From Desulforamulus putei DSM 12395 (GTDB lineage: Bacteria > Bacillota > Desulfotomaculia > Desulfotomaculales > Desulfotomaculaceae), in NCBI RefSeq assembly GCF_900129195.1, contig NZ_FQUY01000004.1, positions 67,582 to 131,581 on the forward strand: a stretch of DNA of 64,000 bases, given 5' to 3'. Each line of letters opens with the position of its first letter. Position 1 is the stretch's first letter. Both the position numbers and the translations under genes were made by a program. Shown piece after piece: positions 41,097 through 41,213 of this stretch. Under the pieces are notes generated by a model that was not told the origin of the DNA, searched no databases, and worked only from the letters and a program-made list of their open reading frames with translations.

Positions 41097-41170
41097 ATAA
41101 AAAACTCCTACCCATGTACATACAAGGGTAGGAGTCATCAGCTTGGCAGCGTTAGGCGAACTCCATCGCC
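41097..41170 (-). ncRNA. Fluoride riboswitch (crcB motif) with its terminator
   Basis: On the minus strand the aptamer runs from 41170 to about 41131: GGCGATGGAGTTCGCC, TAACGCTGCC and CTGATGACTCCTACC in the order of the crcB consensus, including the invariant GATGG, TAAC-GCC and GATGACTCCT. The 3' end overlaps a terminator: ACTCCTACCC (41104-41113) pairs with GGGTAGGAGT (41126-41135), then T6ATTTT. Fluoride would favour the aptamer and let transcription pass. It precedes eno, a known target because fluoride inhibits enolase. Confidence 0.93.
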
Positions 41171-41185
41171 GTTCAATTTTCCCTT

Positions 41186-41213
41186 ATTATATCACAAACC
41201 GTTTATTAGGCAA
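41186..41213 (-). promoter_or_regulatory. Promoter of the fluoride-riboswitch unit
   Basis: On the minus strand TTGCCT (41213-41208), 16 bases, TATAAT (41191-41186), with an extended TG two bases ahead of the -10. Transcription would begin just before the aptamer. Confidence 0.75.

Follow-up and report, generated by a model that had tools for sequence, protein, structure and literature searches.

That fluoride riboswitches lead the way to fluoride-resistance genes is well established, and a locus in Desulforamulus putei DSM 12395 raises the question of what such a switch controls once the first gene behind it has been destroyed. Within the window, by which we mean the whole 64,000-nt stretch of DNA analysed, the switch and its neighbourhood comprise the following features:

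41186..41213, minus strand: extended -10 sigma-70-type promoter-like site (TTGCCT, 16 nt, TG.TATAAT; 10 of 12 matches)
41122..41179, minus strand: fluoride riboswitch aptamer (RF01734; covariance match of 50.2 bits, gathering score 34)
41097..41136, minus strand: intrinsic terminator, an 11-pair stem and U tract with its 5′ arm inside the aptamer 3′ end
40697..41086, minus strand: enolase pseudogene, residues 1-133 only, with two frame changes (near 40975 and 40755) and the rest deleted
39493..40659, minus strand: intact MFS transporter, 388 aa, GTG start (PF07690, E 1.5e-49)
38008..39189, minus strand: cyclopropane-fatty-acyl-phospholipid-synthase-like gene (CMAS), 393 aa (PF02353, E 2e-102), 303 bases after the MFS gene
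37046..37744, minus strand: PAP2 phosphatase, a possible distal neighbour (98% identical protein in congener G002; PAP2-MFS behind a riboswitch in G104)
41324..41394, plus strand: divergent uspA, a 5′ fragment of about 24 codons (an intact uspA-crcB pair stands here in G002)

The RF01734 match is full length (model positions 1-64, E 6.1e-11), has the conserved core, and is the only one in the 3.1-Mb genome. The promoter-like site at 41213-41186 was the only one found on the minus strand between 36900 and 41700 by a scan that covers sigma-70-type sites and would miss a non-sigma-70 promoter. The terminator stem (41136-41103, followed by U's) starts within the aptamer, and this stretch folds with -35.8 kcal/mol (z -4.0), no shuffled sequence doing equally well. 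A terminator overlapping the aptamer 3′ end in this manner has the appearance of the expression platform of an ON switch, and the aptamer is predicted to bind fluoride. Fluoride-response genes stand behind or beside the switch in relatives (crcB in G001, G004, and G005; uspA-crcB in G002). The window shares the aptamer, the terminator overlap, and the ON logic with known RF01734 (crcB) operons (PMC2864571, PMC11139923), and its riboswitch is an ordinary member of the fluoride class. The sequence-only reading had judged aptamer, terminator, and extended -10 to be complete and had named an RF01734 covariance search as the check; the above-threshold score, the promoter matches, and the hairpin statistics bear it out. 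Elsewhere in the window, a c-di-GMP-I riboswitch aptamer (29490-29577, minus strand) scores 79.4 bits.

The presence of an accessory enolase behind the switch is readily understood because enolase is inhibited by fluoride and is frequent in fluoride riboswitch operons (PMC11139923), as in the ppaC-uspA-eno-gpmA-crcB FRM operon of E. cloacae (PMC5533749). Enolase is thus already known as cargo of this riboswitch class; the window differs in that its enolase is dead and the intact cargo consists of the MFS and CMAS genes. The remnant keeps about 134 of approximately 430 codons, the 3′ two-thirds (some 295-300 codons) being deleted. Aligned with the enolase of its own genome, to which its protein is 68% identical, it runs in frame 0, shifts near 40975, and shifts back near 40755, and homology stops at a tyrosine codon near 40697. 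Enolase_N profiles match in two frames (48 and 91 bits), a profile search found no Enolase_C at the locus, and no single open frame carries both domains. The loss of about 300 codons noted from the sequence alone is therefore confirmed, on the minus strand and with two frame changes added. The cell is not left without enolase, since a complete gene is present on contig C65 of the same genome (G000) and the 3′ end of another on C60, which also rules out the remnant as the genome's only enolase. These near-identical housekeeping loci (C65:1-1400 and C60:1-100) lie at contig ends where the assembly broke in a repeat, and secG and a membrane pyrophosphatase-like gene follow the C60 copy. In an enolase tree, the remnant falls outside the housekeeping clade of the genus, with weak support (63/71) and a meeting of long branches; it appears to be a diverged accessory enolase and not a copy of the surviving loci. 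Given the same support and branch lengths, we do not claim a pairing of the remnant with the accessory enolases of G051 or G085.

The MFS gene begins 37 bases past the last enolase codon, and its protein aligns end to end with nine relatives in an uninterrupted frame. We consider it probable that a fluoride-ON transcriptional operon whose accessory enolase is lost now directs expression of the MFS gene and then of CMAS. In the proposed mechanism, the 41136-41103 terminator would halt transcription when fluoride is absent, and bound fluoride would cause the aptamer to retain the 5′ arm of the terminator, so that polymerase reads on. The original first gene would have encoded an accessory enolase as a backup for a fluoride-sensitive enzyme, and its decay and ~300-codon loss would have moved the MFS gene to about 440 bases behind the switch. 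Transcription would then pass through the dead enolase into MFS and reach CMAS by read-through, with MFS presumably translated from its GTG into a functional protein. The first frame of the remnant ends at 40817, so that about 157 bases ahead of MFS go untranslated, and Rho-dependent polarity over them could cut the read-through reaching the transporter.

What the transporter moves was approached from its sequence and its neighbours. The intact frame matches PF07690, and a profile search found no match to Fluc (PF02537) or CLC; like the Fluc/CrcB and CLC-F exporters it is a membrane protein of a fluoride riboswitch operon, but it belongs to neither family. None of the NCBIfam models among the matches listed reached its cut-off. 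The best relatives of solved structure are drug and sugar MFS transporters such as NorA, which are too distant for a substrate to be assigned. The genome retains a crcB pair elsewhere, in a uspA-crcB-crcB operon on contig C29 (L010 4775-5980) that has no recognisable fluoride riboswitch.

Counting the window, the class has 12 MFS loci of approximately 63-71% identity, and each of them has a fluoride riboswitch no more than 2.5 kb away. With the distance reduced to 1.5 kb, the linkage holds for 9 of these 12 loci versus 1 of 29 loci whose MFS is more distantly related, compared over the same flanks (Fisher p 6e-6; random-gene expectation at the riboswitch density of the class, ~0.15%), statistics that overstate independence, as the linked loci share ancestry, and that count one decayed aptamer (G050, 26.7 bits with our own model) among the nine. 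That aptamer (L072 1393-1446) stands directly before the MFS gene and has lost its 5′ half while keeping a terminator-like hairpin, and so illustrates how a switch can lose its sensor in nature. The arrangements are diverse: the riboswitch is directly before MFS in G090; it precedes PAP2-MFS in G104, the same gene pair lying at a contig edge in G103; MFS is downstream in a riboswitch-Na+/H+ antiporter-USP-HEAT protein-MFS operon in G052 and G063; and MFS adjoins riboswitch operons or diverges from them in G051, G024, G059, and G085 (divergent in G024 and G059). The locus in G062, where a riboswitch is followed by a 99-codon remnant of a Na+/H+ antiporter and then MFS, is like the window in that the first gene is cut to a 5′ remnant and MFS is the first intact gene, and differs in the gene lost, an antiporter rather than an enolase; it appears to be an independent repeat of the same history. 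A tree built from 90 MFS proteins groups the window protein with its eight nearest relatives in a clade (100/98) whose members are all riboswitch-linked, and over the whole tree the linkage requires about nine changes, so that it must have arisen or been lost repeatedly. These patterns are best explained if the MFS gene was already a fluoride-regulon gene and no accidental passenger. In G103 (L096 4047-4402) and G104 (L097 8391-8746), two tandem minus-strand fluoride riboswitches 39 bases apart are faced by a third on the plus strand, a cluster that stands before a membrane pyrophosphatase and a USP/antiporter pair.

Beyond the class, the association is sparse. A riboswitch was found within ~6 kb in 6 of 80 MFS loci from named genomes, and the 74 loci without one rule out that the family is fluoride-specific wherever it occurs; a sample from the phylum gave 3 of 29 loci with a riboswitch within 1.5 kb. 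Apart from the class member, four of the linked loci show close and sensible arrangements: riboswitch-crcB-DUF190-MFS in Desulfosporosinus sp. FKB, riboswitch-crcB-DUF190 with a divergent MFS in Acididesulfobacillus, a riboswitch directly before MFS with crcB adjoining in a proteobacterial MAG (L204), and riboswitch-antiporter-MFS in a Nitrospiraceae MAG. The links in Desulfosporosinus, the proteobacterial MAG, and Nitrospiraceae are independent. Across the wider family, a ChrB_N-like protein is the neighbour seen most often (14 of 93 loci), a hint that the family has other roles; this protein is encoded at L089 7844-8377, L093 5792-6409, and 12 more loci, riboswitch-free Thermoanaerobacter included. 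Because other loci have no fluoride link, the family is a general one with one lineage tied to fluoride, a pattern that fits a transporter of fluoride itself as well as an exporter of a product accumulating under fluoride.

The sequence-only reading had offered two alternatives for the transporter, a fluoride-linked exporter or a side effect of the deletion. A link to fluoride is favoured and a side effect disfavoured, because MFS relatives adjoin riboswitches where no such deletion has occurred (G090; G052/G063 and G104). Most likely, the protein would expel fluoride or else a compound accumulating under fluoride stress. Export of fluoride itself is possible from the genomic association; the placement of most of the wider family away from fluoride genes (all but 6 of 80 loci) and the presence of the genome's own crcB pair weigh against it.

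CMAS is also found with fluoride riboswitches in other genomes. It stands directly behind one, with its own ribosome-binding site, in congener G003, and in a riboswitch-antiporter-CMAS operon in G028; a riboswitch, an enolase with an internal deletion, and CMAS follow one another in G051. Linkage was seen in 4 of 30 sampled loci, the window's own being counted by operon, and the tie thus appears looser than that of the MFS gene. The G051 enolase (L089 5527-6371) is another riboswitch-driven pseudogene, found in a different bacterial family, with residues 188-324 deleted and stop codons. We hypothesize that CMAS lowers membrane permeability to HF.

Two congeners, G002 and G003, have homologous riboswitch regions with different genes behind the switch. 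The -10 TGATATAAT is conserved in both, the aptamer core is identical in G002 and nearly identical in G003, and the terminator hairpin is retained in both despite base changes in the stem. On one contig of G002, the switch is followed by two fragments of the same MFS gene, DUF1232, and PAP2 (98% identical), and on its opposite side an intact uspA-crcB pair diverges from it, of which the window has only the uspA fragment. Three other congeners have a fluoride riboswitch before crcB, with crcB pairs in G001 and G004 and a TauE-family permease preceding crcB in G005; none was found in three further congeners. No other riboswitch-bearing congener has an enolase behind the switch; a full eno at this position in close relatives, named beforehand as a refuting result, was not found. 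Within the genus, the switch thus seems to have been kept while genes behind it were lost, each loss bringing another gene forward.

The same comparisons bear on whether the operon is simply decaying, with the enolase dead, MFS and CMAS on their way out, and the riboswitch an unmutated relic with no present function. In G002, the closest congener, the MFS gene is a pseudogene behind the same intact switch and must be dispensable there; a second MFS copy has decayed directly behind a riboswitch in G028, an enolase behind a switch is decayed in G051, and the window's own uspA is a fragment. However, the window MFS and CMAS are full length and uninterrupted, and CMAS compared with G003 gives a dN of 0.09 and a dS of 1.4 (dN/dS ~0.06), indicative of strong purifying constraint. 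Furthermore, G003 preserves the aptamer, terminator pairing, and -10 even though its neighbouring CMAS gene shares only 79% DNA identity with that of the window. We regard decay of the whole operon as unlikely.

A second alternative is that MFS is transcribed from a promoter of its own that goes unrecognised, the riboswitch serving only the dead remnant. Such a promoter could escape a scan for sigma-70-type sites, the many MFS relatives outside fluoride operons must use other promoters, and MFS diverges from the riboswitch operon in G024 and G059. Yet the minus-strand scan found no promoter-like site between 41186 and 39493 and none before CMAS, the MFS start lies only ~37 bases beyond the last enolase codon, and neither a consensus promoter nor a terminator was found between remnant and MFS. 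This agrees with the earlier observation that MFS has no visible promoter of its own, and makes a separate promoter decidedly improbable; that the switch now drives the transporter, as first proposed, is the best-supported reading of the sequence. A sequencing or assembly error hiding an intact enolase is very improbable: enolase repeats did break the assembly at the other two loci and one frame change (the second) lies in a C run, but the remnant is inside a 143-kb contig, its mere ~68% identity to the other copies rules out a collapsed repeat, the 295-codon loss and the first frame change, outside any homopolymer, are not homopolymer errors, and an enolase is likewise absent behind the switch in G002 (one contig) and G003.

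A fluoride-ON operon that has passed from enolase to MFS and CMAS suggests that the fluoride response includes an uncharacterised transporter, along with the membrane-lipid enzyme encoded downstream of it. It would also be a natural case of cargo swapping, in which the switch stays, the genes behind it are lost or replaced in close relatives, and the next gene moves up; this singles out the MFS clade, and CFA synthase less so, as testable new fluoride-tolerance genes. Considerably more tentative, and doubtful at present, is the suggestion that the riboswitch-linked clade represents fluoride-response transporters of a third, unrecognised type, which would export fluoride or a toxic product arising when fluoride blocks metabolism, and that CFA synthase provides a fluoride-induced tightening of the membrane that slows HF entry. 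This MFS clade and CFA synthase were not found as recurrent fluoride cargo in the literature searched, which excluded the original 2012 cargo survey; the novelty of this cargo is therefore not proven, and we claim no priority.

Riboswitches of another class also occur near these loci. Between CMAS and PAP2 in the window (37883-37994, minus strand), a marginal Moco/tungsten riboswitch match (36.5 bits, cut-off 36) has several broken pairs and is possibly a relic, and in G104 (L097 2642-2761) a strong Moco/tungsten riboswitch (75.9 bits) lies beside a fluoride riboswitch, before an ABC-type permease.
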